Shown piece after piece: positions 12,139-27,715 of a stretch of 28,067 nucleotides of DNA. The position numbers and the translations under genes are program-made. Each line of letters begins with the position of its first letter. Within the stretch, counting starts at the first letter, position 1. The stretch comes from Akkermansia sp. (GTDB lineage Bacteria > Verrucomicrobiota > Verrucomicrobiia > Verrucomicrobiales > Akkermansiaceae), in assembly GCA_020047775.1 (NCBI GenBank), contig JAIFNK010000105.1, positions 1 through 28,067 of the forward strand, in the 5' to 3' direction. The notes beneath the pieces were generated by a model that worked only from the letters and a program-made list of their open reading frames with translations, was not told the DNA's origin and did not search any database.

Positions 12139-12154
12139 GTGACGAAATTGTCAC
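12139..12154. other. Small inverted repeat at the acr3 stop
   Basis: GTGAC (12139-12143) and GTCAC (12150-12154) form a 5-bp hairpin with a 6-nt loop, overlapping the acr3 stop codon. The acr3-gapdh gap (12084-12150) is the longest inside the ars operon. It is too weak for a sure terminator but could modulate read-through or mRNA stability. Confidence 0.25.
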
Positions 12155-13221
12155 AATACGCCGCCGGAAACGGGTCCGCTGAAAAACCTGCGGCGGAATC
12201 GGAGTGAAACGTGGACGAGGCCGATCAAGACAGGCACCTCGATCAAAGGGCCCACCACCGCCGCGAAAGCGACGCCGGACTTGATGCCGAACGTCGCGAT
12301 GGCCACGGCGATGGCGAGTTCGAAGTTGTTACCCGCGGCGGTGAATGCGAGCGTCGTCGAGCGCGGATAGTCGGCACCGATGCGCTTGGCGAGGAAGAAG
12401 CTCGCGAAGAACATGGTCGCGAAATAGATCGTTAGAGGGATGGCGATGCGCACGACATCCAGCGGCAGCGCGACGATGGCGTTCCCCTTGAAGGTGAACA
12501 TCACGACGATGGTGAAAAGCAGCGCGCAGAGCGTGAGCTTCGAGATGCGCGGGATGAATTTCCCATCATACCAAACTTCGCCTTTCAGCGGGACCAGGAT
12601 CACGCGGCTGAGGAATCCCGCGGCAAACGGGATGCCCAGATAGATCATCACGCTCCAGAAGACCTCCGACATCGCGATGGGCACGATTTTTCCCTCCAAC
12701 CCGAAGTACGGGGGTAACACGGTGATGAAGAACCACGCGTAGGCGCTGTATAACAGAATCTGCAGGATGCTGTTGAGGGCGACGAGTCCGGCGGCGTATT
12801 CGCGGTTTCCCTTGGCGAGGTCGTTCCAGACGAGCACCATGGCGATGCACGGGGCGATGCCCACCAGGATCAGTCCGACCATGTAGTCCGGGTGGTCGCG
12901 CATGAAGGTGAACGCCAGCAGAACCATGAGGGATGGCGCGACGATCCAGTTCTGCACCAGCGCCAGGGTGAGGATGCGGGTGTTGGCAAAAACCTTGGGA
13001 AGCTCGGCGTATTTCACCTTCGCGAGCGGTGGATACATCATCAGGATGAGGCCGATGGCGATGGGAAGATTGGTGGAACCCACGGTCATCGGCGCGAAAA
13101 ACGTTTCGGGATCGGTGATGACGAACTGTGCGAGTGCCACGCCAAGACTCATGGCCATGAAGATCCAGACCGTGAGGTAGCGGTCCGTGAAGGACATGTT
13201 TTTGGCGACGGCGTCGGACAT
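12151..13221 (-). CDS. acr3: Acr3-type arsenite efflux transporter
   Basis: This 356-aa, ten-helix membrane protein carries the Acr3 landmarks. These are [15 protein letters not shown], the pore cysteine in [20 protein letters not shown] (Cys125), [11 protein letters not shown], and [21 protein letters not shown], where Glu301 matches the essential glutamate. It exports As(OH)3 driven by the proton gradient. It lies third in the operon, after arsR and the DUF6428 gene and before gapdh-arsJ, so one transcript covers arsenite and arsenate routes. Confidence 0.94.
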
Positions 13222-13233
13222 GGCAGTGGGATG

Positions 13234-13695
13234 TTAGTCACAACCGCCAGGTGCGCAGCAGGAGGATTTTCCGCCGATGGCGGGCAGTCCGCAGAGTTCG
13301 GGCGCGAGGCACTCGGTGTGTTTGTGGGCGAGCCGGAGGACGACGGCTTCTTTGGCTAGTTCGTGGCCGGTGATGGCGTATTGGGAAATCACGCGGTCCT
13401 CGTATTCGATTTCCACGGGGATGGAATCGTCGGGCAGCAACGACTTGGCCTTGGCGAGGATGGACGCCATTTTGCCGGTCTCGATGCGGTGATCGTAGTC
13501 TTCGCCCACCCAGATCTGGAGCTGGCAGGTGGTGGTTTCGCGCAGCGTGCCGCCGCAGTCGAGGAAGGTTTTCCGCACGCGGCCGACTTCGGTGACGTGG
13601 AAGGAAACCGGCACCGCGCCGCCGTCGGGCAGGGCGATGCGGAAGTGGCGGTCGGTGTGCTCGGTGAGCAGCGATTTGAGTTCGGAGAGTTTCAT
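13234..13695 (-). CDS. DUF6428-family protein of ars operons
   Basis: The protein is 153 aa and soluble, with no signal peptide. It starts MKLSELKSLL and has conserved-looking FHVTEVGRVRKTFLDCGGTLRETTTCQLQIWVGEDYDHR, DSIPVEIEYEDRVISQYAI and AHKHTECLAPELCGLP. It ends in a cysteine cluster (SSCCAPGGCD). I recognise it as the DUF6428 family, seen between arsR and acr3 in several bacterial ars operons and of unknown function. Its start overlaps the arsR stop (ATGA), so the two are translationally coupled. The Cys-rich tail and HKHTEC segment could bind As(III) as a chaperone or accessory sensor; this is inference. Confidence 0.75.
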   Translation of the reverse strand: MKLSELKSLLTEHTDRHFRIALPDGGAVPVSFHVTEVGRVRKTFLDCGGTLRETTTCQLQIWVGEDYDHRIETGKMASILAKAKSLLPDDSIPVEIEYEDRVISQYAITGHELAKEAVVLRLAHKHTECLAPELCGLPAIGGKSSCCAPGGCD

Positions 13696-14054
13696 GGTTT
13701 CAGGGATTTGGGGCCGGGGCAGCAGCTGGTCTCGCGAACGGCGAGGCGGGCGAGGGCGCGGGCGGCGTCGGATTTCAGCACGGCGTCATCCGACTCGAAG
13801 AACTTTTCCAAAGTGCCGACGAGCTCGCGATACTTCGGCTCAATGCGGAAATAGGTCCATTTTTCGCACTTCTCGCTTTCGAGCAATCCGGCCTTGCGGA
13901 TGACCTGCACGTGGCTTGAAACCGAGGATTGCGGCATTTCGAGGATGTCCGCGAGTTCACAAACGCAGAGAGGCTCATCCAAGACGAGCCGCACGATCCG
14001 CCAGCGAGTCGAGTCGGCGAGGGCTCGCGAAAATGTTACGATGTTTTCCGTCAC
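13692..14054 (-). CDS. arsR: Arsenic-responsive repressor ArsR
   Basis: The protein is 120 aa from a GTG at 14054. The winged-helix core FSRALADSTRWRIVRLVLDEPLCVCELADILEMPQSSVSSHVQVIRKAGLLE contains CVCEL, matching the As(III)-binding ELCVCDL motif of ArsR. The wing SEKCEKWTYFRI follows, and a C-terminal SCCPGP adds more cysteines. It heads the minus-strand operon with DUF6428, acr3, gapdh and arsJ, and should repress it until arsenite binds. Confidence 0.92.
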   Translation of the reverse strand: MTENIVTFSRALADSTRWRIVRLVLDEPLCVCELADILEMPQSSVSSHVQVIRKAGLLESEKCEKWTYFRIEPKYRELVGTLEKFFESDDAVLKSDAARALARLAVRETSCCPGPKSLKP

Positions 14055-14069
14055 GGGAATGATCGTAAC
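14035..14069. promoter_or_regulatory. Inverted repeat spanning the arsR start (candidate operator)
   Basis: GTTACGAT (14035-14042) and ATCGTAAC (14062-14069) form a perfect 8-bp dyad around the arsR GTG start at 14054. A repressor bound here would block transcription or initiation of its own gene. The 19-bp spacer is longer than in typical ArsR operators, so confidence is modest. Confidence 0.4.
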
Positions 14070-14127
14070 GAGATTCCCCGTTGTGTCTAGGGGGGATTTT
14101 TAGGACATCATCGAATCTATTGAAGTG

Positions 14128-14868
14128 TCATTCATTTTTCCGGCTTTGGAAGCCGACCAGAGCGTAAACCACGAAGCCGAGCAGGATGCCAGACAGGAGG
14201 ACGGTCCAGAAGCCCTCGCTTTGATAGACCTCCTTGGGAGGACTCATGCCGAACACGGCCACCAGCGTTGCGAGGGGAAAGAAAAACGCCGCCAAACGGT
14301 TGAGGCGGCGCGCCTCGTGGTTGGCCACCGCTGCGGCTTGCGCCTGGCTGCTGGCGGCCTCGGCCAGCGTGAAGTCCATACCCGACTTGGCATCGGCCGC
14401 GACCAGATCAACGCCCCGCTCCAAATCCACGGCCTGGTCACGCAAGCTGATCACGCGGGACTCGTCCGGCAGTGCCTGGCGGGTCGCCTGCAACACCTCC
14501 GACAAGTGGCGGGTGGACCGTTGCAAGGGATTCACCCGGCGCATCACTTCGAAATACTGGCGGGCCGTTTTCGCCGCCTCCACATCGGTGTCCACCTCAT
14601 GGATCGCCGTGCGAAAGGACGCCAGATGGGCCTCCAAACCGGCAAGCCCTCCGGCGAGCGGCGCGCTTTTCCACTCGCCCGCCGGATTCCGCCAGACCAC
14701 CACCGCCGTCCGGACCTCGTCGTCCTCCGCCCGCGGAACCTGATGAAGAAGCAGGAGCAGATGGCCATCCTCGTCCATGAGGCGCTGCTTGCCCACGGTC
14801 ACGCCGAGCCGCTTGCGGATCGAATCCGGCAGGTCCCAGGTCTTCGGAATGTAGGCGGCTTTCTCCAT
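14128..14868 (-). CDS. CorA-like membrane protein lacking the GMN motif
   Basis: The protein is 246 aa from the ATG at 14868; an earlier start at 14892 is possible. It resembles the C-terminal half of CorA: a long helical region (VDTDVEAAKTARQYFEVMRRVNPLQRSTRHLSEVLQATRQALPDESRVISLRDQAVDLER), then HEARRLNRLAAFFFPLATLVAVFGM and GFWTVLLSGILLGFVVYALVGF. Two C-terminal helices joined by a short loop match CorA/ZntB topology. The selectivity motif after helix 1 is GMSPP instead of GMN, so Mg2+ transport is doubtful. It is 73 bp upstream of arsR on the same strand, but not obviously part of that operon. Confidence 0.65.
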   Translation of the reverse strand: MEKAAYIPKTWDLPDSIRKRLGVTVGKQRLMDEDGHLLLLLHQVPRAEDDEVRTAVVVWRNPAGEWKSAPLAGGLAGLEAHLASFRTAIHEVDTDVEAAKTARQYFEVMRRVNPLQRSTRHLSEVLQATRQALPDESRVISLRDQAVDLERGVDLVAADAKSGMDFTLAEAASSQAQAAAVANHEARRLNRLAAFFFPLATLVAVFGMSPPKEVYQSEGFWTVLLSGILLGFVVYALVGFQSRKNE

Positions 14869-15049
14869 GCGCCTAGCAGCGCATTTTCCCACTCAGCGGG
14901 CAAGCCAACATTGGCGGGGAAATGACGAAGGAGAACTCCCGCCATCCGGGGCGTCCCGCTCGCTGCCGGGCAGGTTCACGAAGCGCTGGCGATGAGGTGG
15001 CGGAGTTCGTCCGCGACTTCCAACAGGACAGCCGTTCCGAGGATAACTC

Positions 15050-15143
15050 GCTTTGCTGTCTCAGTTGGCGTTCTTTCTCCAACGCCTTGAACACGATCTC
15101 ATCGAGGCGCGCATCCACTGCCGCCCGCTGGCTCGGTGACGGG
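15050..15143 (-). pseudogene. Relic of a Ser/Thr protein kinase C-lobe
   Basis: On the minus strand, in the frame read through about 15143-15050, the sequence gives SPSQRAAVDARLDEIV followed by FKALEKERQLRQQS. This matches the end of the kinase domain of the intact gene at 20589 (APSKKVHIDVRLDEIVLRALEKTPELRYQTA). Beyond it the similarity stops, and no kinase N-lobe is present because the DUF6288 gene ends directly upstream at 15151. The rest of the gap 14869-15150 shows nothing else I can support. It is best read as a leftover of a deleted kinase gene. Confidence 0.65.
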
Positions 15144-15150
15144 AAGCGAT

Positions 15151-17553
15151 CTAACGGGCCGCCTTGTGTTTTTGTATGAAATCCGCCAGGCCGATGACCG
15201 GAGGGGTTTTGGTGCTGTTTTCGATCGAGTTGATCGCCTGATCGAGCATGGCCGAGTCTTGATTCGGCTTGCCGAATCCTTTACGAAGCTCCTTCAACTG
15301 TGGCAGGACCTCCTTCGCATGGGTGCCGTAGCGGGAGAGGTATTCGAGGCATTTCGGCATGCGTCGTCCCAATCCCCAGCGGCCGACATCGAGCACCTCG
15401 ATGCACAACGGCATGCCCTCGCGGATGCCGAGGCGCGACAACAGGTCAAGACCGGCGAGGCGGATGCCATCGGCAAACATCTCGCCGCTGGGCGCCATTT
15501 TTTGCACCGCCTTGATGACATCGGGAAGCAGGATGGCGATGTCGCGATCGGTGAGCTTGCCGTAGATGGGGGAAAGTTCACCGCGCGTGCGGCCGTCCTG
15601 GTTTTGCAGCACCGCCTTGATCGCCGGATAGAGAAGCTCGCGGTCCACGCCGTCGAGGGATCCGGTCATGATGCCTCCGGTGCGTGAGAACATCGCCTCG
15701 GTAGCGGCGCGTTGCGCCATGCCGCGCGGGTCGCCGGGCGTCGGGGTCGCCATCATGACGAGCAGGTCAGGCAGGGACTTCCGGCGTTCCTGCTCGCCGA
15801 GCGCGCTGAGGGACGTGACGGCCAGGGCGCGCATCCAGGGGTCCGGGTCCTTGAGCAGCTGGCGCAAACGCGGCGCGGCGGCGTCCGCCTTGGGGCCCAG
15901 GCAACCGAACGCTTCGGCCGCGCCGTAGCGGGCGTTGGTGTCGGCGGATGATAGAAGTTTCGCCAGGGCGGGCAGGAAGTCGCCCTCGCGGCGGCCGAGT
16001 TCCTGCGCCGAGCGCTTGCGGACGGCGGGCGACCAGCTCGACAGACCGTCGAGGAGTTCCTTGTCGTTGCGTTTCGAATAGAGGAGCGGGGCGGTTTTCC
16101 TGGTTTCGAAATACCCGCGGCCGACGGCGATGAGATCGGCCGCTTCCTGTTGGGAAACCGGAGCCAGCGAGCTGGGTCCCTTGCCGGTGATGCGGAGTTT
16201 TTTGAGCGGCAGCGCGTAGGCCAGCAGGTAGGTGCCGGTGTTGTCCCAACTGGTGTATTTCCCGTGCTCTTCCTCGCCAACCGGGGAACCCTGATAGCGG
16301 AAACTCCCGTCCCAGCCGCGGGCGAGGTCGTAATACCAACCCTGCTCCTGCCAATAGGCACCGCTGGCTTGCGGGCCGCAGCGGGACACGCCGGGCATCG
16401 CCCACAGGATGTTGAAGAAATTCCCGGTGTGGCCGCGTTCGCGTTCGTCGTAGGCCGCCACGCTCATTTTGGCGAAGAAGGTCGCCGCCTCGCGGTCGCC
16501 TAACAAATCGAAGAGCACCGCCGCGTTGGAGGATTTCCCATTGTCCTCATGTCCCGGCCAGGGGGCGTGGTCGCCGTAGGGCGGCGCGCCCTTGTTGACA
16601 TACCAGCGCAGGAAAGAGGCGGAGCGGTTGATTGCCTTGTCCAGATCCGGATCCTTCACGCCTGCCTCGCGGGCCAGCACCATGGCCACGGAAAGCGGGA
16701 TGCCCGGCGAGTTCATGGCACCGTAGCCGTTGAGGTTTCCATCCGGCCTGGCGAACTTGTGGCCCCACGTGCCCACGCCGCTCTGGCCGCGGGCGGACTC
16801 GAGGGCCAGGCGTTTGAGTCCGGGCATGACCGATGGATCGCCGGTGGCCATGGCATATTCGGCGAGGAAAGTGAGCGCGTAGCCGTAGTGCCAGGTGGCC
16901 ATGGATTCGAGGCGGAACTCAGCCACCAATTTGGCGTAATTGGCGAGCATGGGCCGGTATTCCTCCGTGCCGCTGGCTAACAGGGCTAGGGCGTTGATGC
17001 TGTTGGGAATGGAGACCTGCGCCAGCCCGCGCTTTGCGATGGCTTTGCAGCCGAGTTCGAGAATTTTCGCCGATTTTTTGCAATCGTAGGGTGCGGTCGC
17101 GCTGTAGGTGCCCATGACCGGAAGCCGGATCTCGACGTTTTCGGTCTTGCCGGCGCGCCAGCGGACGAGTTTCAGGATGCCTTTCGACGCATCCTGTTCG
17201 GCGACCATGAGAGCGCGGGAAAATTGGATCCGGGCGTCGTCGTCGAAGGGTTTTTCCGCAACTCCCAAAATCACGTCGCCGGGCTGGAGAATGCCGTCGG
17301 CCGGCGAGCTTTTTGCAACCTCGGTGACGAGGATTTGTCGGGCTTCGGCGGTGTGTTTCCAAGCATACATCCAGCCCCGCGCGCCGGTCGGGCCGAGCGT
17401 CCAATCATGGCTGCCGTCGGTCTTGTCGCCCCGGGTGAAATCCGGAACCGGGGGCTTGCCTCCACGCAGGGCGGCCATGGCGTGATCCGGCAGGCCCAGC
17501 ATGCAGGCGCAAAGCACCAGCAGTGCGGTGGTCGTTCGTTGGAGAGATTTCAT
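15151..17553 (-). CDS. Secreted DUF6288 protein with PDZ and HEAT-like repeats
   Basis: The protein is 800 aa from the ATG at 17553, chosen because it gives a clear signal peptide (MKSLQRTTTALLVLCACMLGLPDHAMA, cleaved before ALRGG). The upstream frame to 17634 lacks such a feature. Next comes DWTLGPTGARGWMYAW and a PDZ-like segment (ILVTEVAKSSPADGILQPGDVILGVAEKPF). An alpha-toroid-like middle with Trp/Gly-rich motifs follows (GTWGHKF, NLNGYGAMNSPGIPLSVAM, SWDNTGTYLLAYALP). HEAT-like repeats cover about residues 490-600 (RKRSAQELGRREGDFLPALAKLL, NARYGAAEAFGCLGPKA, DPWMRALAVTSLSALG). The layout matches DUF6288 proteins of Planctomycetes and Verrucomicrobia. It is exported; function is unknown. 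Confidence 0.75.
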   Translation of the reverse strand: MKSLQRTTTALLVLCACMLGLPDHAMAALRGGKPPVPDFTRGDKTDGSHDWTLGPTGARGWMYAWKHTAEARQILVTEVAKSSPADGILQPGDVILGVAEKPFDDDARIQFSRALMVAEQDASKGILKLVRWRAGKTENVEIRLPVMGTYSATAPYDCKKSAKILELGCKAIAKRGLAQVSIPNSINALALLASGTEEYRPMLANYAKLVAEFRLESMATWHYGYALTFLAEYAMATGDPSVMPGLKRLALESARGQSGVGTWGHKFARPDGNLNGYGAMNSPGIPLSVAMVLAREAGVKDPDLDKAINRSASFLRWYVNKGAPPYGDHAPWPGHEDNGKSSNAAVLFDLLGDREAATFFAKMSVAAYDERERGHTGNFFNILWAMPGVSRCGPQASGAYWQEQGWYYDLARGWDGSFRYQGSPVGEEEHGKYTSWDNTGTYLLAYALPLKKLRITGKGPSSLAPVSQQEAADLIAVGRGYFETRKTAPLLYSKRNDKELLDGLSSWSPAVRKRSAQELGRREGDFLPALAKLLSSADTNARYGAAEAFGCLGPKADAAAPRLRQLLKDPDPWMRALAVTSLSALGEQERRKSLPDLLVMMATPTPGDPRGMAQRAATEAMFSRTGGIMTGSLDGVDRELLYPAIKAVLQNQDGRTRGELSPIYGKLTDRDIAILLPDVIKAVQKMAPSGEMFADGIRLAGLDLLSRLGIREGMPLCIEVLDVGRWGLGRRMPKCLEYLSRYGTHAKEVLPQLKELRKGFGKPNQDSAMLDQAINSIENSTKTPPVIGLADFIQKHKAAR

Positions 17554-17668
17554 TGGGGTTGATTCGTTTGCGGTAGTAGGAAAGCAGCGGGCCAGGCGAG
17601 GAAGCCGGGCGGGCATGGATCGACTATACGTCATGCGATGGGCGGATGATTCCGATATTCTTCGGCAA

Positions 17669-17686
17669 GGCGATTTCCAAATCGCG
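17669..17686. repeat. Solitary copy of the GGCGAT-hairpin repeat
   Basis: GGCGATTTCCAAATCGCG at 17669-17686 matches the hairpin GGCGATCTCCGAATCGCC at 9740-9757 in 15 of 18 positions. It contains a perfect 7-bp inverted repeat (GCGATTT, AAATCGC) with a 2-base loop. It lies in the 238-bp gap between two divergent genes, so it is not a transcription terminator for either. Confidence 0.5.
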
Positions 17687-17791
17687 GGAGCCGGCCAGGC
17701 GCGAAAATCCGCGCTTACTTCATCATCAGTCCATTGTTTCGAGCTTCAGTTTTTCTGTCCGATTCGGCAAGCGGCGGCTACCCTTGAGTAA

Positions 17792-17983
17792 ATGAACGCT
17801 GAAACCGATGCGCAATTGCTGCGTGCTTACGCCGAAAGTCGCTCCGAAGCGTCCTTCGCCGAGCTGGTCCGGCGGCACATCGATTTGGTCCATTCCGCTG
17901 CGTTCCGGATGGTGGGCGACGCGCATCTCGCCAGGGACGTGACGCAGGGCGTGTTCGTCGCGCTGGCGAAAGATGCGGGCTAA
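17792..17983 (+). CDS. ECF sigma factor, region 2 fragment (5' part of a frameshifted gene)
   Basis: The 63-aa frame starts MNAETDAQLLRAYAESRSEASFAELVRRHIDLVHSAAFRMVGDAHLARDVTQGVFVALAKDAG and then meets TAA at 17981. This is a complete sigma-70 region 2 of the ECF type. The natural continuation (LTDHPVLSGWLHRTARNIAA) lies in the -1 frame starting at 17980. Related sigma factors normally read AKxAGQLxDHPVLSGWLH, so about four bases seem lost at 17978-17981. Either the gene is broken, or the base call is wrong, or there is a -1 frameshift at the stop. Alone this fragment would not be a functional sigma factor. Confidence 0.7.
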   Translation: MNAETDAQLLRAYAESRSEASFAELVRRHIDLVHSAAFRMVGDAHLARDVTQGVFVALAKDAG

Positions 17984-17994
17984 CGGATCACCCG

Positions 17995-19674
17995 GTGCTC
18001 TCCGGTTGGCTGCACCGCACCGCGCGGAACATCGCCGCACAAACCATCCGTACCGAGGTGCGCCGCCGAACCCGTGAAAAGGAAGCCGCCGCCATGAATG
18101 AATCTCCGGTAACCGACGCCGTGTGGGAGAACATCGCCCCGCATCTCGATGCCGCGCTCGCCGAGCTGGGAGAATCGGATCGTGATGCCGTGCTGCTCCG
18201 GTATTTTGAAAACAAGCCCGCTCAGGAAATGGCCGCCGTCCTCGGCATCAGCGCCGAGGCCGCGCAAAAGCGTGTCAGCCGGGCGGTGGAGAAACTGCGG
18301 GAAAACTTCGCCAAACGCGGCATCACCGCCGGAGCGGCGGGACTCACAGGCATCATTTCCGCGAACGCCGTGCAGGTTGCTCCGCTCGGCCTTGCCACCA
18401 CGATTTCATCCGCCGCATCCGTCGGGACCGTCTCTATCGCGGCGGGCACCCTCCAATTTCTTACCATGACCCTTTTGAAAAAAGCGCTTGTTGCCGCTGC
18501 GGTTTTCGTCATCGGCGGAACCCTGATCTATGAAGTGCGCAGTCGCTCGCAAACAAGCGCACCGCCCCTTGCGACACTGCCACCGGTTAGCTCTCAGAAA
18601 CCCCAGCCGCGTGACGGCGGCTCGGTCGTGGAACAGATCGCCAAGGCAAGGGACATCAAACCGACCATCGACCGGAAGAAGGAGTTGGAAAGGCTCAAGG
18701 CGATGTGGATGGAGTTCGATGAAGATAGCGCCATCATCACCGAGGAGCACGAGAAATTGGCAATTGAGACCGCTCGGGTGTTGCTCTGCGGCCGGGAAGC
18801 GCTGGAGCTTGTGGTTTTCCTGAAATCCAACCGGCGGAAGGGCCATGCCGATGTGGTTCGTGGCGGGGTTTCCGCGTATCTCGCTACCATAGACGATCCA
18901 GAGGCGCGGAAGCTATTGATCGAGGCGGCTGCAGAAAACCGCGAGGAAATGAAGGCTCAACGCTATGACCCGTTGGCATGGAAGTCGGCTGCCAGCGAGC
19001 GCAACTCACTGCTGGTGGCCTGGAGCAAGGCCGCCGGACGAAGTTGCTCCCTGGAAACACTGGAGGAGCTGCGCGGTGGTTTGAAGGACGAGAAATTCGG
19101 CCAGGAAGCGCTATACGGATACTATCTGGAGCGGATGCAAACCGATCCGGAGGGGGCGCTTCGCGGCACGCTTGAGGCACTGAAGTCCGGAGTGCATTCG
19201 CCATCGCAGGGGCAAAGTATCTGCATGTTGTTCAGGGAGAAGCTTCCCGACGATGTCAATTTCGTGCAGCTCGAACAACTCCTGCCAAAAGGCGATGGGC
19301 GGGAAAATGAATCGTCTGGCAACTGGGTAGCTCTCGAATGGGGTCGCCATGAACTGTTCTCCAAATGGGCGGAGCGGGACCCTGCCGGAGCGGCCAACCA
19401 TGTGATGGCAAATCCCGACCGATTAAACGCCAAACTGATCGGTTTGATTGTCAGTTCCTATTACTATAAGGATCCAACAGGCACCGCGACATGGGTTTCG
19501 CAGTTTCCAGCAGGTCCCTACTACGATCTGGCCGCCAGCAGTGCGGTGATCCACACGCGATCGACATCGCCCGTCGAAACCGAAGCGCTGATCCTGAAAA
19601 TCGGCGATCCGAAACTCCGGGAGGAAGCACTCAGGATATTGAAAGCTCCCTCCACCAATCCCGACACCCGTTAG
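17995..19674 (+). CDS. ECF sigma factor region 4 with membrane anchor and long C-terminal domain (3' part of frameshifted gene)
   Basis: The open frame is 559 aa from a GTG at 17995, and is open back to 17980, where it meets the upstream fragment. Residues 1-110 hold the rest of the sigma factor: LSGWLHRTARNIAAQTIR, then region 4 ALAELGESDRDAVLLRYFENKPAQEMAAVLGISAEAAQKRVSRAVEKLR. Two hydrophobic stretches follow (TGIISANAVQVAPLGLATTISSAA and LLKKALVAAAVFVIGGTLIYEV), then a roughly 370-aa helical, charged domain. That domain includes DPAGAANHVMANPDRL and DPTGTATWVSQFPAGPYYD, reminiscent of repeat units in Verrucomicrobial extracytoplasmic domains. The layout suggests a membrane-tethered sigma factor that carries its own sensor. 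The C-terminal domain is not recognised. Confidence 0.75.
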   Translation: MLSGWLHRTARNIAAQTIRTEVRRRTREKEAAAMNESPVTDAVWENIAPHLDAALAELGESDRDAVLLRYFENKPAQEMAAVLGISAEAAQKRVSRAVEKLRENFAKRGITAGAAGLTGIISANAVQVAPLGLATTISSAASVGTVSIAAGTLQFLTMTLLKKALVAAAVFVIGGTLIYEVRSRSQTSAPPLATLPPVSSQKPQPRDGGSVVEQIAKARDIKPTIDRKKELERLKAMWMEFDEDSAIITEEHEKLAIETARVLLCGREALELVVFLKSNRRKGHADVVRGGVSAYLATIDDPEARKLLIEAAAENREEMKAQRYDPLAWKSAASERNSLLVAWSKAAGRSCSLETLEELRGGLKDEKFGQEALYGYYLERMQTDPEGALRGTLEALKSGVHSPSQGQSICMLFREKLPDDVNFVQLEQLLPKGDGRENESSGNWVALEWGRHELFSKWAERDPAGAANHVMANPDRLNAKLIGLIVSSYYYKDPTGTATWVSQFPAGPYYDLAASSAVIHTRSTSPVETEALILKIGDPKLREEALRILKAPSTNPDTR

Positions 19675-19690
19675 CAGTTGGAATATGGCC

Positions 19691-19717
19691 TCACAGCGTC
19701 GCGACAAGATCGTATCC
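19691..19717 (-). other. Possible remnant of a rimO 3' end
   Basis: Read on the minus strand, these 27 bases encode GYDLVATL and a TGA stop, against GYDLVAAR and TGA at the real rimO end. 22 of 27 bases agree with the relic at 23577, and three of the five differences are third-codon positions. The similarity ends there. The match is short and may be chance. The rest of the gap 19675-19812 shows nothing else supported. Confidence 0.25.
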
Positions 19718-19812
19718 CCCCACCGGTTTCCTGCAATTCACTCCGCATCCATCCGAGAATTTGGATTTTCCGCGTAACAGTCCCGCCGTTTTGTGGTAGG
19801 GAGTGACAACTC

Positions 19813-20550
19813 ATGGCCGATCCTACATTTTTCGCGACGACCCGCTGGACGCTGGTGCGCGATGCCGCGCGCGGCGGCGACACCCTGGCTGTCGAGGCTC
19901 TGGGCACGCTGGCGGGCACCTATTGGCAACCGCTTTACCGGTATGCACGCCGCAAAGGTAAGTCTCCGGAAGACGCCGAAGACCTCGTGCAGGGGTTCCT
20001 CTCCCATGTCATCGAAGCCCGGGCGCTCAGCCGGACAGACCACACCAAAGGCCGCTTCCGCGCGTTCCTCCTCGCCTCGTTCCAGAACTGGATGATCAAC
20101 GAGTGGAAACGCGAGAGCCGCCTCAAACGCGGCGGCGGAAAGACGCTCCTCTCGTTCGACTGGCAGAGCGCCGAATCCGGTCTCCATCTCGAACCCGCCG
20201 ATGACCAAAGCCCGGACAAACTCTACGACCGCGAGTGGGCGCTCACCTTGTTGGGCAGAGTCCTCGCAGATCTCGAAGCCCTGTGCCGCGCCGAAGGAGG
20301 AGCCGCTCAGTTCGAAATGTTGAAACCCTGCCTCACCGCAGACTCCACACGCATCGCCTACGCATCCATCGCGGCCACACTTGGCACAAGCGAAGGCGCG
20401 GCCCGCGTCGCCGTGCACCGCCTGCGCAAGCGCTACCGCCATCTGCTCAGCGAGGAAATCTCGCGCACGCTTTCCTCCCCCTCCGCAGTCGAGGAGGAAA
20501 TGCGATCGCTGTTTGCCGCTCGCCGGTTCGCCGCGCTCGCGGGCGGATGA
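19813..20550 (+). CDS. ECF-type RNA polymerase sigma factor
   Basis: The protein is 245 aa. Region 2 reads FFATTRWTLVRDAARG, then YWQPLYRYARRKGKSPEDAEDLVQGFLSHVIEARALSRTDHTKGRFRAFLLASFQNWMINEWKRESRLKRGGG. Region 4 reads RIAYASIAATLGTSEGAARVAVHRLRKRYRHLLSEEISRTL. This long-spaced ECF group (RWTLV start, KGRFRAFL) is typical of Planctomycetes/Verrucomicrobia. In that group the sigma gene is often next to a Ser/Thr kinase that probably controls it. Here a kinase starts 38 bp downstream, so a sigma-kinase pair is likely. No anti-sigma gene is evident. Confidence 0.88.
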   Translation: MADPTFFATTRWTLVRDAARGGDTLAVEALGTLAGTYWQPLYRYARRKGKSPEDAEDLVQGFLSHVIEARALSRTDHTKGRFRAFLLASFQNWMINEWKRESRLKRGGGKTLLSFDWQSAESGLHLEPADDQSPDKLYDREWALTLLGRVLADLEALCRAEGGAAQFEMLKPCLTADSTRIAYASIAATLGTSEGAARVAVHRLRKRYRHLLSEEISRTLSSPSAVEEEMRSLFAARRFAALAGG

Positions 20551-20588: not shown

Positions 20589-22346
20589 ATGGAGAACCCC
20601 GCCACCATGACCGATCACTCTCCCATTTCCGCCTGCCCTGACTGCGGCACTCCCCTCCCGCCGGATTCTCCGCAGGCGCTTTGCCCCGCCTGCCTGATGA
20701 GGCAGGCTCTCGCCTCCCGCACCATCGTGGAGGGAGACCCACACGCCAATACCTCACTGCCATTTTCACCCGAGGAAATCGCCGGCAAGTTTCCCGGATT
20801 CGAGATCCTCGAGTGCCTCGGCCGCGGCGGCATGGGCGTGGTTTACAAGGCCCGCCAGAAGTCGCTCAACCGGATCGTCGCCATCAAGATCCTCGCCCCG
20901 GAACGCGGCGGCGAAACCCGTTTCGCCGAGCGCTTCGCCCGCGAGGCCGAATTCCTCGCCAAGCTCAACCACCCGCACATCGTCACCATCCACGACTTCG
21001 GCGAAACCGCCGGGCTCTTCTATCTGGTCATGGAATTTGTCGATGGCGTGAACCTCCGCGACCTGATCCGCGACGGCAAACTCGAAGCCAAACAGGCTCT
21101 CGCCATCGTGCCGCCGATCTGCGACGCCCTGCAATACGCGCATGACAAGGGGATTGTTCACCGCGACATCAAGCCGGAGAATCTATTGTTGGATCGCGAA
21201 GACCGCATCAAGATCGCCGACTTCGGCATCTCCGCGCTGCTGGGAACCGATGTCGCCCCGTCCGGCACGCCGCCCTACATGGCACCGGAGCAATGCGGCG
21301 CTTCACCGGAAGTCGACAACCGCGCGGACATCTACGCACTCGGGGTCGTGTTGTATGAAATGCTCACCGGAGAGCGCCCCAACAAGGAACTCATCGCCCC
21401 TTCCAAAAAAGTCCACATTGATGTGCGCCTCGACGAGATCGTCCTGCGCGCCTTGGAGAAGACACCGGAACTCCGCTACCAGACGGCTGGGGAATTCCGC
21501 ACGCAAGTGGAGACCATTGCATCAACATCCGCTAACTTTGGAGCGAAGGTGGCTCAAATTCACGCATCGGAAATCGACAACCATGCATCTGATGTATCCT
21601 CGCGCATCTCCCGCACTGCGATCGTCGGTGCCTGCTGGGCGTTCGCCGCTGTTCTCCATTATCTGATGCCCACGCTGGGCTACCGGATGAAGAGCGAGTT
21701 CGTGCCTATCATGATGAGCGTCCTCGGACTTTCCGCCCCGATCGGCACGACGATTCTCGGCTGGATCGCAGTCTGGCAAATTCGCCGCTCGGCGGGGAAA
21801 CTACGTGGTATGCGGTTGGCGGTATTTGATGGACTGTTCTTCCCGCTGCTTCTCTTGGTTGTCGCCGTTGGTTTTACTTTTGGACTCTTGATTTCGGAAC
21901 TCGAAATGGGTTCGCCCAAAACCGTCCAAGTCTACGCTCTGGCTCTGTTGGTTTGCTCGCCATTGTGCTGGTTCATCATCCGTCGCGTCTGGCGTAACGT
22001 GAACAAGCCAGTGGCTGGCCCGCACCATTCTGAAAAATCCAAGTCCGCGACTGGCTCAACTACCGCTTCAGAAACCAAACCCAACCGACTCGGCAAATCG
22101 GCAGTTGGCTTCTTCATCGCCGCGGTTGTGGGCTTCCCTTTGCTTCTAGGGTTTCACGGGTGCACAAGAGGTGATGGTTCTCTGCCGCCTGGCGTTGCTG
22201 TTGTCATTCGTTTTGGGCTTGATGAGTTGGCGCTCCAATCCAGGCAAGTTCGCCGCGCTCGCATCGGGCTTGGGACTCTTGCTTTTGGTGGGCTTCACCT
22301 TCAACTACCTCACCCCTCGACCGCCCGCAATCAAAGCTGCCCTTGA
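20589..22346 (+). CDS. Zinc-ribbon membrane Ser/Thr protein kinase (C-terminus probably frameshifted)
   Basis: The reading frame is 585 aa; a second ATG at 20607 is possible. It has an N-terminal zinc ribbon (CPDCGTPLPPDSPQALCPAC, residues 16-35). The kinase domain has glycine loop GRGGMGVVYKA (78-88), Lys100 in VAIK, HRDIKPEN (191-198), DFG (211-213) and APEQ (232-235). Four or more hydrophobic helices follow (about 325-525). All catalytic residues are present. After KSAVGFFIAAVVGFPLLLGFHGCTR the frame turns into low-complexity, non-hydrophobic sequence until the stop. The overlapping +1 frame meanwhile encodes a good membrane helix and a folded-looking domain. The true protein may therefore continue into the 22174-22899 frame. 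It probably regulates the ECF sigma factor just upstream. Confidence 0.88.
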   Translation: MENPATMTDHSPISACPDCGTPLPPDSPQALCPACLMRQALASRTIVEGDPHANTSLPFSPEEIAGKFPGFEILECLGRGGMGVVYKARQKSLNRIVAIKILAPERGGETRFAERFAREAEFLAKLNHPHIVTIHDFGETAGLFYLVMEFVDGVNLRDLIRDGKLEAKQALAIVPPICDALQYAHDKGIVHRDIKPENLLLDREDRIKIADFGISALLGTDVAPSGTPPYMAPEQCGASPEVDNRADIYALGVVLYEMLTGERPNKELIAPSKKVHIDVRLDEIVLRALEKTPELRYQTAGEFRTQVETIASTSANFGAKVAQIHASEIDNHASDVSSRISRTAIVGACWAFAAVLHYLMPTLGYRMKSEFVPIMMSVLGLSAPIGTTILGWIAVWQIRRSAGKLRGMRLAVFDGLFFPLLLLVVAVGFTFGLLISELEMGSPKTVQVYALALLVCSPLCWFIIRRVWRNVNKPVAGPHHSEKSKSATGSTTASETKPNRLGKSAVGFFIAAVVGFPLLLGFHGCTRGDGSLPPGVAVVIRFGLDELALQSRQVRRARIGLGTLAFGGLHLQLPHPSTARNQSCP

Positions 22347-22899: not shown

Positions 22900-22998
22900 C
22901 AAGTCCCGCCAAGGAACCGGCTGAAGCGTGTCCGTTCACCCACCACCTCGAAGGATGCAACCCGATAACTGGTGGCAGACCCTCGGTATTCTGTTCGA

Positions 22999-23724
22999 AT
23001 GAAGACTCGATCCATTGCATGTATTATCGTGTTTGTCCTCGCGACCTCCTGCAAGAAGGAGGAGCGCGCGGCATCGACTGGCAACGATGAGAGCGCACCC
23101 CGGCATCGCACGGAGGGATTTTCCGGGGAGGATCGTCGGCGTGATCGCGCAAACCCGGACAGGAAGCAAGACCGGGCCAGGCAGCTTGTATTTTCCAAGC
23201 TACTTGAGTCGGCGAGGAAGTCGTTTGACAGCCATGATATCAGCTCCGCACTTACGGTGCTTGAAGAGGCCGGTGACCTTTACGAAGCACACCCGGACAT
23301 GCTGAGCCTGCGTGGGAACTGTCATGTGGAATTGAGGGATTTCGAGAAGGCGTTGGCGGACTTTTCACAGGCATTGAAGAAAATGCCCAACAGTCCTGCC
23401 ATCCACTTCAATATCGGCGAAGTCCATTTCGTGTCGAAAAGATGGGACGACGCCATCCAATCATTCAATCAGGCGAAAGACAGGTTGGCTCCCGGATCCG
23501 ACGCGCTCCTCCAGCTGATCGATTTCAAGCTGATGCTTTGTGAGGCAGGCCGGAGTTCACGCTTCAGCTTGCCTCTTCACCGCGCCGCGACGAGATCATA
23601 CCCGCGCCAGTCGCCGATGGTGATATCGGCGAATTCGCCGACGGGGATGGCTTCGGCCACCATCACGGAGTCGTCGATTTCCGGGGCGTACCACTGGGTG
23701 CGGGCGACGCCGGGTTGTATATGA
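22999..23724 (+). CDS. TPR-containing lipoprotein
   Basis: The protein is 241 aa from the ATG at 22999, chosen for its lipoprotein signal MKTRSIACIIVFVLATSC with Cys18 as the lipidation site. A charged linker follows, and then tetratricopeptide-like repeats at about residues 70-175 (SALTVLEEAGDLYEAHP, LRDFEKALADFSQALKKMPNSPAIHFNIGEVHFVSKRWDDAIQSFNQAKD). It should be membrane-attached and bind other proteins. From about residue 194 to the end the reading is antisense to a copy of the rimO 3' end, so the last 47 residues are probably not native. Its likely original end is lost or unknown. Confidence 0.75.
   Translation: MKTRSIACIIVFVLATSCKKEERAASTGNDESAPRHRTEGFSGEDRRRDRANPDRKQDRARQLVFSKLLESARKSFDSHDISSALTVLEEAGDLYEAHPDMLSLRGNCHVELRDFEKALADFSQALKKMPNSPAIHFNIGEVHFVSKRWDDAIQSFNQAKDRLAPGSDALLQLIDFKLMLCEAGRSSRFSLPLHRAATRSYPRQSPMVISANSPTGMASATITESSISGAYHWVRATPGCI
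23577..23717 (-). pseudogene. rimO: Duplicated 3' end of rimO (left flank of the R-M island)
   Basis: The minus strand encodes the last residues of RimO (QPGVARTQWYAPEID, then DSVMVAEAIPVGEFADITIGDWRGYDLVAAR and TGA). Against the end of intact rimO (26312-26452) the 141 bp align without a gap, with 13 mismatches by my count, about 91% identity. A central block of more than 50 bases is identical. Most changes are silent, with three replacements (Y/D, D/G, A/D). Both copies have the same orientation, so they form direct repeats around 23718-26311. No start or upstream part of rimO is present here. Confidence 0.9.
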
Positions 23725-23790
23725 ACGCATGCAAGCCTGAAAAGGCATACGAACGCATGCAAATGTGTCGTTGCAATCGAACGCATGCAA
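23723..23790. repeat. Three 12-bp iterons with 28-bp period before the HTH gene
   Basis: GAACGCATGCAA occurs exactly at 23723-23734, 23751-23762 and 23779-23790, starting every 28 bp. Each copy contains the palindrome GCATGC. The unrelated 16-bp spacers and the short repeat rule out CRISPR. The last copy ends 16 bp before the ATG of the XRE-type regulator, so these are probably its operator sites. They start 5 bp after the rimO-copy boundary at 23717. Confidence 0.75.
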
Positions 23791-23806
23791 TGATACCCAA
23801 ACCCCG

Positions 23807-24052
23807 ATGCGAATCAAAACAGCAGCCACGCTTGGAGAACTGGTCCGGGACCAGCGGAAGCAGCGCGGTTGGTCGCAGAGTCAACTGGCGGAGAAAGTCG
23901 GCGTGAGCCGCTTGTGGGTGGGGCAATTTGAAAACGGCAAGGAAACCGTGGAGCTGGGGCTGGTTTTGAAAGCGCTTCGGGCGCTGGATCTCAGTCTTGA
24001 AGCGGGTCTCCTCAGAAAAAATTTCTTACCTGGAGGGCCGTTGGAGCCGTGA
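23807..24052 (+). CDS. XRE-family HTH regulator (HipB-like), putative R-M controller
   Basis: The protein is 81 aa from the ATG at 23807. The Cro/CI-type HTH reads TLGELVRDQRKQRGWSQSQLAEKVGVSRLWVGQFENGKETVELGLVLKALRALDLSLEA, as in HipB/Y4mF-type DNA-binding antitoxins. No toxin gene (HipA-like) is next to it. Instead it lies convergent with an endonuclease-methyltransferase pair inside the same island, which suggests a controller-type role. Three 12-bp iterons upstream are probable binding sites. Stand-alone HTH genes of this type also occur as TA remnants, which remains possible. Confidence 0.82.
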   Translation: MRIKTAATLGELVRDQRKQRGWSQSQLAEKVGVSRLWVGQFENGKETVELGLVLKALRALDLSLEAGLLRKNFLPGGPLEP

Positions 24053-24098
24053 ATGAAGATTTCCAGTTCTGACCTGAAAATTGCCGGGTTGTGAAGTT

Positions 24099-24905
24099 TT
24101 AAGGAATCACGCTTCGGTAAAAAGTTAGATCCATCGATTCGATTTGATTCGCAGGAACCAAGCAATAGTGGCGCTCTTCAGCAATTTTAACGAGACCATC
24201 GGTTTCAAGACGCAGCTCGAACATGGCAATGCGTGAGTCTTCCATAAATTGCGCGGAGATCGCGCGACAGACCAAATTCGGAAATTTCTCGGCGCAGCAG
24301 GCGATGTCTTGTTTGACCTGAACGGTGGAAAGTTGATCGCTTCCTCCCTTTGCCTGAACCGGGATAATGAATTGGCAACCATGTCGATCCACCCCGACAT
24401 AAACCTCGTCGATTTCTATTTGCCCTAATCCTTTGACTGTTGTGCGCAAATGATTCTGAAGGGAGTAAGTAGTGATCCCAAGAAAAATATCGATCAAACG
24501 ATTGTAGCGAACCCTCGCTAGGAGTGCCTGCTCGTCCGAAAGTGAATTGGACGAAATAATTTCCGGGGTGGCGTCGGGAATTTTAATTGTGACAAGGCTC
24601 TCGTTTGGAGCGATACGGTTGATAGGCACCAAGCGGAATTCATACAATGCTCTTCCCGACCCTTCGATGACCCATTCCTGCTTCGGTGGCTGGGTCTTCA
24701 GAATTTCTGGCGGCAGAGGATTTCGGTAACGGAACGAGTAAAGGACATCACCCAGATTTTTGGGCACGGCAATTCCGAGTTTTGCAGCTGTTGCCACCAA
24801 TTGCTCGCGTGTGAATGCGATCGAGGTGACTCCTTTTTTATACGAGCGAAAAAACAAATCGGCGACAAGTGCCTGATAGCGGTTGGGTTGCCTTGGCTTC
24901 ATCAT
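24099..24905 (-). CDS. Putative type II restriction endonuclease
   Basis: The protein is 268 aa from an ATG at 24905 that overlaps the methyltransferase stop as TGATG (an ATG at 24902 is an alternative). I see LGIAVPKNLGDVLYSFRYRNPLPPEI, EWVIEGSGRALYEFRL and ARVRYNRLIDIFLGITTYSLQNHLRT. A likely PD-(D/E)XK core follows: GQIEIDEVYVG, then FIIPVQAKGGSDQLS, with Asp166 or Glu167 and Gln184-Ala-Lys186 as candidate catalytic residues. Proteins with this pattern recur beside cytosine methyltransferases and are annotated simply as endonucleases. Coupling to the methyltransferase and the island context support a restriction role. The recognition site is unknown. Confidence 0.75.
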   Translation of the reverse strand: MMKPRQPNRYQALVADLFFRSYKKGVTSIAFTREQLVATAAKLGIAVPKNLGDVLYSFRYRNPLPPEILKTQPPKQEWVIEGSGRALYEFRLVPINRIAPNESLVTIKIPDATPEIISSNSLSDEQALLARVRYNRLIDIFLGITTYSLQNHLRTTVKGLGQIEIDEVYVGVDRHGCQFIIPVQAKGGSDQLSTVQVKQDIACCAEKFPNLVCRAISAQFMEDSRIAMFELRLETDGLVKIAEERHYCLVPANQIESMDLTFYRSVIP

Positions 24906-26269
24906 CAAATGGCGATATTGGACAAACGTTGGGTTTCGGTTTCAATCTGTGAACGCTTTCTTGCCCCGCTTTTGCGGTCCCGCTTCTGGATCGGACTTTC
25001 AACTCCCCAAAAAGCGGCGGCTTGGGACATATCCATCGCCAGAACCGCTGGGTCTCCGAGGGGAACGGGGGTTTCAACAGCCAATGGATTGAGGCCCATC
25101 GCGTCAATCACCGACGAAGCGACCGCACGTGCCAGCGGTGGAGGAACCGCATTCCCAATCTGGCGGGCACCATGCCATTTGGTCCGGTGAAAACGAAACC
25201 AGTCAGGGAAACCATGCAACCGAGCCATTTCACGAACGGTTATACAGCGCGGGTATCGATAATGAATCGGTCTAGGGCTTGTGAACGCCCCGCGCGCGGC
25301 ATCCGTTCCAGCACGTAAGGTATTGGACACCCCGTTGGGCGTAAGTTTGAAAAAACGGGAAATCGGCTCCACTGAACCCGCCTGGGTTTCGTCGAATCGG
25401 AGTTTCGATATCGATGAATGCTCTGTTCTGGCACTTGACGTTAGCATCGTCGAATCCCAAAGACGGGGAATCCCGAAGTGCCAAGAACTGGCGTCCAAAC
25501 ACCGCATTTCACGGGCATAAGCCGAAGGTTTTCCCCATCCCCTTGTTCTGACTTCATCAGTATCCCGCAGGTTTTTAAACGCATCTGCATCGGGAAGATC
25601 ATCGAGGGCCTCGCCGCAAGTTGGGCCAGCGTCTAGACCGACTTCAAGATGACGCCCTGGACGCGAAGTCGTGGGATAAGGATACAACGGGACGTTGAGA
25701 TTCTTTTTCGCCCCGAGGAGGAACAACCGCTTTCGATCCTGAGGAACTCCATAAGAGGCTGCGTTTAATACTGCCCACGGCATGCGCACATCATATCCCG
25801 CCGCCTCAAAAGTCTCTATCAGTTCTTCTAGGAATCTTCGATGGGAACCGACGGTCAGCCCCTTGACATTTTCGAATACGAAGTAGTCGGCATCAAGTTC
25901 CTTCACAATTCTTACAAAATCCCGCACCAAGCTATTCCGGGGATCATCGAGAATCCGTTTCCCGATCATGGAAAAACCTTGGCAGGGCGCTCCTCCAAAA
26001 ACGACATCAACTTTCCCGGAAATACCCGCAATAGCTCGAATTTGGTCGCCACTCACCTCCCTGACCGATCTTGGTATGACGGCGCAGTTTGGAAAATTGA
26101 ACTTATGAATGGAGGAGTGAATCGGATCTATTTCGACTGCTGCGACAACGTCAAATCCCGCCTGCTCGAAGCCCAAAGACATTCCGCCTGCCCCGGCGAA
26201 TAGATCGACTCCAATTGGCCTGCGGCAGTTCCCAGTTTTCATTGTGTTCTTTTGAACAATTTTCTTCAT
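24905..26269 (-). CDS. DNA (cytosine-5-)-methyltransferase
   Basis: The protein is 454 aa from the ATG at 26269; an ATG at 26242 is also possible. The ordered C5-methylase motifs are motif I GVDLFAGAGGMSLGFEQAGF (20-39), motif IV with catalytic Cys96 in GGAPCQGFS, motif VI FENVKGL (132-138) and motif VIII QDRKRLFLLG. The target-recognition region covers about 200-330, motif IX is PRCITVREMARLHGFPDWF and motif X is QIGNAVPPPLARAV. It transfers a methyl group from SAM to cytosine C5 and should protect DNA from the coupled endonuclease. The Lys/Arg-rich tail after residue 400 is an extension. Its start lies 42 bp from the rimO stop, so its promoter must lie in that gap or inside rimO. Confidence 0.93.
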   Translation of the reverse strand: MKKIVQKNTMKTGNCRRPIGVDLFAGAGGMSLGFEQAGFDVVAAVEIDPIHSSIHKFNFPNCAVIPRSVREVSGDQIRAIAGISGKVDVVFGGAPCQGFSMIGKRILDDPRNSLVRDFVRIVKELDADYFVFENVKGLTVGSHRRFLEELIETFEAAGYDVRMPWAVLNAASYGVPQDRKRLFLLGAKKNLNVPLYPYPTTSRPGRHLEVGLDAGPTCGEALDDLPDADAFKNLRDTDEVRTRGWGKPSAYAREMRCLDASSWHFGIPRLWDSTMLTSSARTEHSSISKLRFDETQAGSVEPISRFFKLTPNGVSNTLRAGTDAARGAFTSPRPIHYRYPRCITVREMARLHGFPDWFRFHRTKWHGARQIGNAVPPPLARAVASSVIDAMGLNPLAVETPVPLGDPAVLAMDMSQAAAFWGVESPIQKRDRKSGARKRSQIETETQRLSNIAI

Positions 26270-26311
26270 GGGATCAAGTGCAAACTTGGAGTGCTTGTTG
26301 TCGTAATTTGT

Positions 26312-27715
26312 TCACCTCGCCGCTACCAGGTCATACCCGCGCCAGTCGCCGATGGTGATATCGGCGAATTCGCCGACGGGGATGGCCTCGTCCACCATGA
26401 CGGAGCCGTCGATTTCCGGGGCGTCCCACTGGGTTCTCGCAACGCCGGGTTGCTCGACTAACACGCGGACGGCTTTGCCGACTTGGGCTTGGTTGGTTTC
26501 TCCGGCGATGCGCTGGAGCTCGGCCATGGCGCGGGACCAGCGGCTTTTGCGGGTGGCGTGGTGGAGGTGGCCGTCCATCTTGTGAGCACGGGTACCTTCT
26601 TCTTTGGAGTATTGGAAAACGCCGGCGCGCTCGAAGCGGAACTCGCGGATGAACTCCAACAGTTCTTCGAAATCCTCCTCGGTCTCGCCGGGGAAGCCGA
26701 CGATGAACGTCGTGCGGATGCCGAGGCCGGGGATGCCGGCACGCATGCGGCGCAGCAGGTCGCGGATGTAGTCGCCGCTGGTCACGCGCTTCATGGCGGT
26801 GAGCATGCGGTCGGAAATGTGCTGGAGCGGGATGTCGACATACTTCGCGACCTTGTCGCACTCGGCGATGGTGGTGATGAGTTCGTCCGACCAATGCGCG
26901 GGGTGCGTGTATAACAAGCGGACCCAGAAATCGCCTTCGATCTTGTTGATCTCGCGCAGCAGGGTGGAGAGCGACTCGCCGCGGGTGGAATCGACGGGCG
27001 AGCTGGGCGTCGGGCGTTTGCCTTCCCACTGGTCCATGCCGAAATAGGTGGTGTCCTGGGAGATGAGGTTGATTTCCTTCACGCCGGATGCGACGAGCGC
27101 CTGGACTTCTCTAACGACGGAGTCCTGCGTCCGCGAACGGTGCTTGCCGCGGATGGTCGGAATGATGCAGAAGGTGCAGGTGTGGTTGCAGCCCTCGGCG
27201 ATTTTCACATAGGCGAAATGGTCCGGCGTGAGACGCATCCGTGGGGTGGACCAGTCCGGGACGTATTGCGGCTTGAGGGTGACGAAATCGCGCGGGTCCT
27301 CGGTGGCGGACGGGCCTTCGGTTTTCTGGACCTCGGCGTCGTTTTTCTTTCCTAGCAGGTTCTCGATGATCGGCGCGACCTTGGTGATTTGGTCGAGACC
27401 GATGAAGGCGTCCACTTCCGGCATGATGCCGGGGAGGTCCTTGGCGAAACGCTGTGACAGACAACCGGCGACAATGATCTTCTGGCGCGCGCGGTCCGGA
27501 TCATCGGTGCGGTCCTTCACCGCGCCGAAGATGGCGTCGATGGATTCCTGCTTGGCCATGTCGATGAACGAGCAGGTGTTGATGATGAGGACGTCCGCGA
27601 GCTCGGGATCCGGAGTGAGGGACATGCCGGCTTGGGCGAGGTGGCCGATCATGACTTCCGAGTCGATGAGGTTTTTGGCGCAGCCGAGTGAGATGAGACC
27701 GACGGTGGTGGACAT
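26312..27715 (-). CDS. rimO: Ribosomal protein S12 methylthiotransferase RimO
   Basis: The protein is 467 aa from the ATG at 27715; the upstream open frame to 27769 lacks homology. The N-terminal MTTase domain has Cys12 (SLGCAKN), Cys48 (NTCSF) and Cys85 (AGCLSQR), which bind one Fe-S cluster. The radical-SAM triad is Cys176, Cys180 and Cys183 in EGCNHTCTFCIIP. The C-terminal TRAM domain ends GEFADITIGDWRGYDLVAAR. RimO methylthiolates the conserved aspartate of S12. The last 141 bp are duplicated at 23577-23717. The 3' end here may have been supplied by the incoming island or may be the original one. Confidence 0.95.
   Translation of the reverse strand: MSTTVGLISLGCAKNLIDSEVMIGHLAQAGMSLTPDPELADVLIINTCSFIDMAKQESIDAIFGAVKDRTDDPDRARQKIIVAGCLSQRFAKDLPGIMPEVDAFIGLDQITKVAPIIENLLGKKNDAEVQKTEGPSATEDPRDFVTLKPQYVPDWSTPRMRLTPDHFAYVKIAEGCNHTCTFCIIPTIRGKHRSRTQDSVVREVQALVASGVKEINLISQDTTYFGMDQWEGKRPTPSSPVDSTRGESLSTLLREINKIEGDFWVRLLYTHPAHWSDELITTIAECDKVAKYVDIPLQHISDRMLTAMKRVTSGDYIRDLLRRMRAGIPGLGIRTTFIVGFPGETEEDFEELLEFIREFRFERAGVFQYSKEEGTRAHKMDGHLHHATRKSRWSRAMAELQRIAGETNQAQVGKAVRVLVEQPGVARTQWDAPEIDGSVMVDEAIPVGEFADITIGDWRGYDLVAAR

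Follow-up and report, generated by a model that had tools for sequence, protein, structure and literature searches.

A type II restriction–modification (R-M) unit of Akkermansia sp. lies between two directly repeated copies of the 3' end of the core gene rimO, and the relationship between the copies fits two orthologous gene tails from different genomes rather than one target copied in situ and left to decay. The window analysed here is the whole 28,067-nt stretch of contig JAIFNK010000105.1 (assembly GCA_020047775.1), which belongs to a fragmented metagenome-assembled genome (MAG; G000, 337 contigs, 57% complete). Its R-M unit consists of a DNA methyltransferase gene (M) followed by a restriction endonuclease gene (R). 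The same pair recurs behind different genes in relatives, the homology between the flanking copies ends at stop codons, the copies differ mostly at silent positions, and an uninterrupted relative exists for one of the loci, that of genome G023.

The rimO tails form the longest repeat family in the window: 142 nt, 91% identical, with a spacing of 2735 nt, 13 mismatches and no gap (coordinates of all features are collected in the table below). A preliminary description of this DNA had reported the repeat as 141 bp, with one copy kept by an intact rimO as its own 3' end and the pair bracketing a helix-turn-helix gene, an endonuclease gene and a methyltransferase gene. This arrangement is confirmed. 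The intact rimO, which matches TIGR01125, ends in the proximal copy (A), and the helix-turn-helix gene can now be refined to a hipB without hipA. The distal copy (B) encodes the last 46 RimO residues plus the stop, and is probably the native tail. The three genes (hipB on the plus strand, R and M on the minus strand) fill the island and, as had been claimed, neither an integrase nor a transposase was found among them in profile scans, which left small overlapping open reading frames (ORFs) unscanned. The lower G+C content noticed earlier by eye is also real, at 0.514 for the island and 0.484 for the endonuclease gene versus 0.623 for rimO and 0.621 for positions 1-20000.

A search for the same unit at other rimO genes, which the preliminary description had suggested, revealed a second case. 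In G023 (59 genomes searched, the window's own included) the order is rimO-M-R-tail-hipA-hipB, with a tail repeat of 153 nt; the distal tail starts 148 nt before its stop, compared with 138 nt in the window, which is near but not identical. Vertical inheritance of the arrangement among relatives had been named as a finding that would speak against insertion or capture. G023 does share the layout. Of the 53 genomes with a near-complete rimO (among 73 of the genus, own included), however, just 2 have another tail on the contig that carries rimO, namely the window's and G023; some of the 53 rimO genes are so close to the end of a contig that a further tail might have gone unseen. An apparent third case, G269, was not counted: its rimO is divided between two contigs that share an identical 107-nt overlap starting near the same breakpoint, and a search revealed no third contig end. 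Relatives of M at E<=1e-60 are present in 12 of the 73 genus genomes. All 12 were inspected and two lie behind rimO; G001, G013, G011 and G315, which are among the genomes closest in rimO, have none at this threshold.

Elsewhere in the genus the pair is found behind yicC. The order in G307 is yicC-M-R-yicC tail-chrA, with a 105-nt tail repeat whose copies are 97% alike. G016 carries M and an internally deleted R, with no flanking repeat, between yicC and a gene for a putative ClC-type channel. Since yicC and the counterpart of the latter gene are neighbours 8 nt apart in G023, the G016 unit splits an otherwise adjacent pair and is an example of a unit that follows a core gene but lacks the additional tail.

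Two features of the repeats bear on their origin. The first is where they end. Relative to the stop codon, homology ends at +1 nt in the window, +2 in G023, 0 in G307 and, in two more distant loci described below, 0 in L099 and -2 in L153, the copies of which differ in the stop itself (TAG/TGA). Orthologous genes of two species often share no DNA past the stop, which would explain such a boundary; nothing would make an in situ copy of a target stop at that point in five of five protein genes, and the boundary therefore speaks against duplication on the spot. The second is the nature of the differences. Pooled over the five loci there are 46, of which 35 are synonymous and 11 nonsynonymous (7, 5 and 34 at the three codon positions). 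The ratio of nonsynonymous to synonymous divergence (pN/pS) is 0.10 between copies and 0.17 between rimO tail orthologues, compared with about 0.59 expected if one copy were neutral. A distal copy freed from selection should gain mostly nonsynonymous changes, and a model of this kind gave p of about 1e-8, under a test that assumes independent changes, pools the five loci and takes its constraint value from rimO alone. Duplication of a single target in situ does not account for these figures, although later replacement of one allele could mimic them.

Bases peculiar to single copies tell a similar story. Compared with the tails extracted from 31 relatives, window copy B has three bases seen in none of them, all amino-acid changing, and copy A has two, both silent. 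The three in copy B are far below the 13 differences between the copies, again contrary to in situ decay. In G023, copy B has three such bases, copy A one, and one more is common to both; all change an amino acid. Both tails probably still belonged to functional genes when most of the differences accumulated, the distal tail having lost its role recently; the window shows this more clearly than G023 does.

We then asked how general the flanking repeats are, using the best 80 of at least 491 loci of this M-R family, 78 of which were testable, with flanks of up to 2.5 kb compared. Direct repeats flank M-R in 11 of the 78 at E<1e-4. Ten of these passed E<1e-8, a threshold that length-matched control intervals taken from other parts of the loci never reached (0 of 76), and so the repeats are not due to chance. 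Tails of upstream protein genes account for four of the 78, in addition to the window: L089 (= G023), L097 (= G307) and two distant relatives, L099, with a 45-nt repeat of an ABC permease gene (PF00528), and L153, with a 58-nt repeat of a UVR-motif gene that is cut by the contig end and is presumably uvrB or uvrC, judging from the motif. In L113, counted apart from the protein-gene cases, M-R lies beside a tRNA-Thr end with a 52-nt repeat. A Vsr gene precedes M in both L113 and L153.

Other repeats were dropped from the gene-tail count: PEP-CTERM-like tails, which by eye look like a common repeat (L092); a 628-nt fragment read as a hydrolase, with no Pfam match and not a clean tail (L128); flanking transposase-like copies with inverted ends (L135); ABC-transporter-like paralogues (L146); a 5'-end fragment (L155); and a dispersed-looking repeat (L161). 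L155 is of interest in its own right, because its methyltransferase (L155:8130-9974, from a rumen Kiritimatiellae) has an N-terminal extension of about 200 residues and it is the 5' end of this gene (131 nt) that is repeated after R. At the protein level, repeats were found in 13 of 86 loci and in 3 of 243 controls, the 91 loci of that survey including three that appear twice (L088/L205, L095/L207 and L094/L078). Among the 13, L093 looks like a paralogue pair, and L210 (in G004) is an M relative with a 23-residue repeat on both sides, in minus-strand coding, beside which no R match was found. Eight further genus loci had no flanking repeat at E<1e-5; a weak 44-nt repeat at L209 (8e-5) runs across the stop of the gene preceding M and was not counted as a tail. 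One of 18 testable viral contigs had a repeat (L289, an internal fragment), as did one of nine further loci from the phylum; the latter, L230, is L099 again by its coordinates, and the others may also be among the 80. The survey covers one R-M family and does not establish a special status for it.

The genome nearest to G023 in the body of rimO, G320, has rimO-hipA-hipB uninterrupted. Aligned with G023, it is 90% identical up to the end of copy A, 79% over copy B (starting at its first base), hipA and hipB, and 86% thereafter. Position would thus make copy B of G023 the resident tail, whereas M-R and the tail upstream of it would have arrived later. A 503-residue ORF that adjoins hipB in G023 (L043:5717-7228) lies mostly outside the aligned stretches and has no Pfam match. 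For the window, G113 may offer a counterpart, but a weaker one that matches the flank only in part, with a single rimO, a homologous kinase block downstream and a repetitive extragenic palindromic (REP)-like 21-mer just past the rimO stop. The preliminary description had left two readings side by side, insertion with a long target duplication and acquisition of a unit that was already furnished with a relative's rimO end. In its anatomy the island does resemble the former, but the silent divergence, the homology ending at stops and the uninterrupted relative of the G023 locus favour the latter, and the part of the proposal that fares badly is duplication in situ.

The route that we favour, with a confidence that is evenly balanced, is that incoming DNA carrying a gene tail followed by M-R recombined homologously with the gene on one side, and that its far end was joined inside the recipient's own tail. 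In the window, a mobile M-R pair would have arrived on DNA from a related bacterium that already held the pair directly behind rimO. The incoming part of rimO would have recombined with the resident gene to give a functional rimO that ends in donor sequence. On the opposite side, donor DNA from upstream of hipB would have been joined by short-homology (illegitimate) recombination within the resident tail, 138 nt before the stop, and the remainder of that tail would have been cut off beyond the island as a non-functional remnant. The two-sided recombination and the direction of transfer are what we infer from this arrangement.

Several observations weigh against capture by this route. No donor genome was found, and the protein-gene-tail form occurs in just 4 of the 78 relatives tested, plus the window. 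In G023, copy B is farther from the G320 tail (0.833) than is copy A (0.877); the stretch from copy B through hipA-hipB is more diverged than its flanks and may itself be foreign; and a test of informative sites had just 2 in the last 141 nt. The G023 copies also share a base in a Leu codon, and copy A has a unique base, so that any donor must have been closely related, unless the copies are sisters. As for the window, the kinase-rimO DNA of G113 is otherwise unlike it and the REP-like motif is mobile. In trees of 138 nt, copy A groups with G001/G013 (support 0.60-0.89) and copy B is nearest G013, which does not settle which copy is foreign, and the two share an unbroken match of about 56 nt in mid-repeat, as if sequence had been exchanged. 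Finally, duplication in situ followed by replacement of rimO with a relative's allele would look alike.

This last scenario belongs to the strongest competing explanation, whereby M-R inserted near the rimO end with about 140 nt copied in situ, the copies then diverged, and rimO was perhaps replaced later. It would give the anatomy and the repeat length, of the order of 100 bp, reviewed in PMC3874152, and it would explain the base that the G023 copies share and 31 relatives lack, as well as the 97% identity of the G307 copies. Given the silent differences, the stop-codon boundaries and the scarcity of bases unique to window copy B set out above, we consider it unlikely, if still a serious contender.

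The direct repeats on both sides, copies that look like alleles, an identical stretch within otherwise diverged copies, and the near-equal starts of the distal tails in the window and G023 might instead reflect a homology-driven cycle. Here the unit and one tail would circularise via the repeats and re-enter the rimO tail of a relative by a single RecA crossover, the tail serving as an attachment site that needs no integrase. Neither a circle nor an empty site in the same species was seen, however, and what separates R from the distal copy is not the same in the two genomes (hipB in the window, about 25 nt in G023), so that they do not represent one reused circle. Since such a cycle also leaves the first arrival at each new gene unexplained, we regard it as distinctly improbable.

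Less probable still is that a recombinase supplied in trans integrates the unit site-specifically at the 3' ends of genes, with the repeats as attachment (att) sites. The tRNA-Thr 3' end in L113 does resemble a classical att duplication, and insertion at a gene end preserves the gene. Against this, the repeats range from 45 to 153 nt, the targets vary from case to case and the copies differ by up to 20%; no recombinase was present among the three island genes of the window or the three large ORFs of L113 (Vsr, M and R), the rest of the genome not having been searched. A degraded tandem rimO duplication, the other finding that the preliminary description had set against its own proposal, or an assembly artefact can be all but dismissed in spite of the fragmented MAG, as homology does not extend past the last 142 nt in the window (153 nt in G023), no decayed upstream part is present, and the independent G023 assembly has the same layout.

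A broader reading goes a step further. In this M-R family, the tail of whichever core gene of the host lies next to the unit (rimO, yicC, the UVR-motif gene, the permease gene or the tRNA gene) might act as a portable homology arm, such that the unit moves together with this tail, enters relatives through it without disrupting the gene, and is able to exit via the repeats. The result would be an integrase-free element whose attachment site is the last core gene it sat behind. We put this forward tentatively, as an unlikely generalisation.

Features of the rimO-flanked R-M island and its borders in the window
Feature	Position	Strand	Remarks
REP-like 21-mer	23550..23570	-	6 nt past the copy B stop codon; 5 nt past the rimO stop in G113
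Copy B (distal), rimO 3' end	23576..23717	-	codons 422-467 plus stop (23577-23579); startless, not a complete gene
Right junction, hipB upstream DNA / rimO tail	23714..23720		3-4 nt, (G)CAA, could be common to both, judging from the alignment
Three GAACGCATGCAA repeats, 28-bp spacing, upstream of hipB	23714..23790	+	similar repeats before hipB in G320 and G023
hipB-type helix-turn-helix antitoxin/repressor gene (Xre/HipB)	23807..24052	+	TIGR03070, 69.8 bits, slightly below the 71.65 cut-off
Type II restriction endonuclease (R)	24099..24908	-	PADLOC REase_II PDLC03404, E=4e-123, nearly full length
C5-cytosine DNA methyltransferase (M)	24905..26269	-	PF00145, 227 bits; TIGR00675; PADLOC MTase_II PDLC03326
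Palindromic element TTGTTCAAAAGAAC(ACA), TTGTTC-N4-GAAC, N4 = AAAA	26243..26259	-	just upstream of the probable methyltransferase start
Copy A (proximal), rimO 3' end	26311..26452	-	inside the intact rimO; adjoins the methyltransferase upstream region
rimO (S12 methylthiotransferase), intact	26312..27715	-	TIGR01125, 464.8 bits (cut-off 357); 3' end is copy A

M precedes R in the same direction in all 80 family loci kept, a linkage which suggests that M is cognate to R; both enzymes may well be active. The true start of M is probably 26242, directly after the palindromic element, which is a candidate regulatory site. The exact TTGTTC-N4-GAAC pattern was found in 4 of 91 loci, among which one locus appears twice, and looser versions are visible by eye at the M starts of genus relatives. 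Residues invariant across relatives of R are D167/E168, Q185 and K187 (D/E...QxK), which we take to be a PD-(D/E)XK-like site. An AlphaFold model of R (predicted local distance difference test score, pLDDT, 76) matched nothing in a PDB fold search at E<=0.001. The best match had 0.011, and the top, non-significant matches were a Holliday junction resolvase and Cas4-family proteins.

The hipB product of the window is 78% identical to that of G023 and 81% to that of G320. In both of those genomes hipA adjoins hipB, completing the hipBA pair; no match to hipA was found in the window, where the pair is incomplete. The GAACGCATGCAA repeats are candidate HipB operators and may have been retained though hipA was lost. 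Beyond copy B, a TPR-repeat ORF (22972-23724, plus strand) runs antisense through the distal rimO tail with its last 50 or so codons, giving a C-terminus that looks chimeric. Further downstream of the island, a Ser/Thr protein kinase gene (20589-22346) has 69% identity over 325 residues to the G113 kinase, which likewise lies downstream of rimO. The REP-like 21-mer, allowing up to two mismatches, is found at 26 places in G023, four in G000 and two in G113, where it flanks an ORF next to rimO that we read by eye as a REP-associated transposase.

Relatives of R with about 61% identity are present in 65 plasmid records, mostly from Klebsiella and Salmonella, and 19 of 20 among the matches listed are plasmids of 4.2-6.3 kb. 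One locus, L225 on plasmid NZ_CP115735.1 (5.4 kb), carries a relative of the M-R pair; on other listed plasmids the R relatives are annotated as hypothetical protein or endonuclease. They also occur at 23 viral-contig loci, and 50,697 phage records gave no match at E 1e-5.

To our knowledge, how R-M units without mobility genes spread is still open, despite the early descriptions of long target duplication. Should the repeats prove to be alleles of two different genomes, part of what is called target duplication may be the scar of a one-sided homologous transfer, and two simple marks, the stop-codon boundary and silent divergence, could flag such scars in any genome collection.

Insertion of R-M units with long target duplication was reportedly described by Nobusato in 2000 and by Furuta in 2010. 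Repeats of the order of 100 bp at inserted R-M units are documented in PMC3874152 and PMC3031569, and insertion with long target duplication is also treated in PMC1643837 and PMC4978471. The window likewise has an R-M pair, without an integrase, between direct repeats of host DNA of around 100 nt. The present copies may differ from the published ones in being mostly silently diverged, in ending at a stop, and in flanking one M-R family at unrelated genes. Our searches of the literature yielded no paper that we recognised as describing repeats that end at stop codons.

A parallel in mechanism comes from a PabI-family R-M system behind the GMP synthase gene, which moves with the flanking gene (PMC4615327); there, a 1577-bp duplication is ascribed to one homologous and one non-homologous junction. 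Both systems would combine an R-M unit carried with its upstream core gene and a one-sided homologous plus non-homologous joining, but the enzymes and hosts are other ones and the repeat of that duplication sandwiches an integrative and conjugative element rather than the R-M pair. Homology-facilitated illegitimate recombination in transformation, with segments of 3-10 bp at the illegitimate joint (PMC6382021), is similar in that a homologous event aids an illegitimate joint. Those experiments were done in other bacteria, whereas here the process is proposed from the junctions. In genomic islands at tRNA ends, too, the 3' end of a gene is repeated at both ends of the island and the gene is kept intact. 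The present units differ from these in that no integrase was seen, the targets are protein genes and there is no fixed core. On the present evidence, what these loci add to the known systems is another host group, one M-R family that recurs at several gene ends, and flanking repeats that can be read as two alleles.

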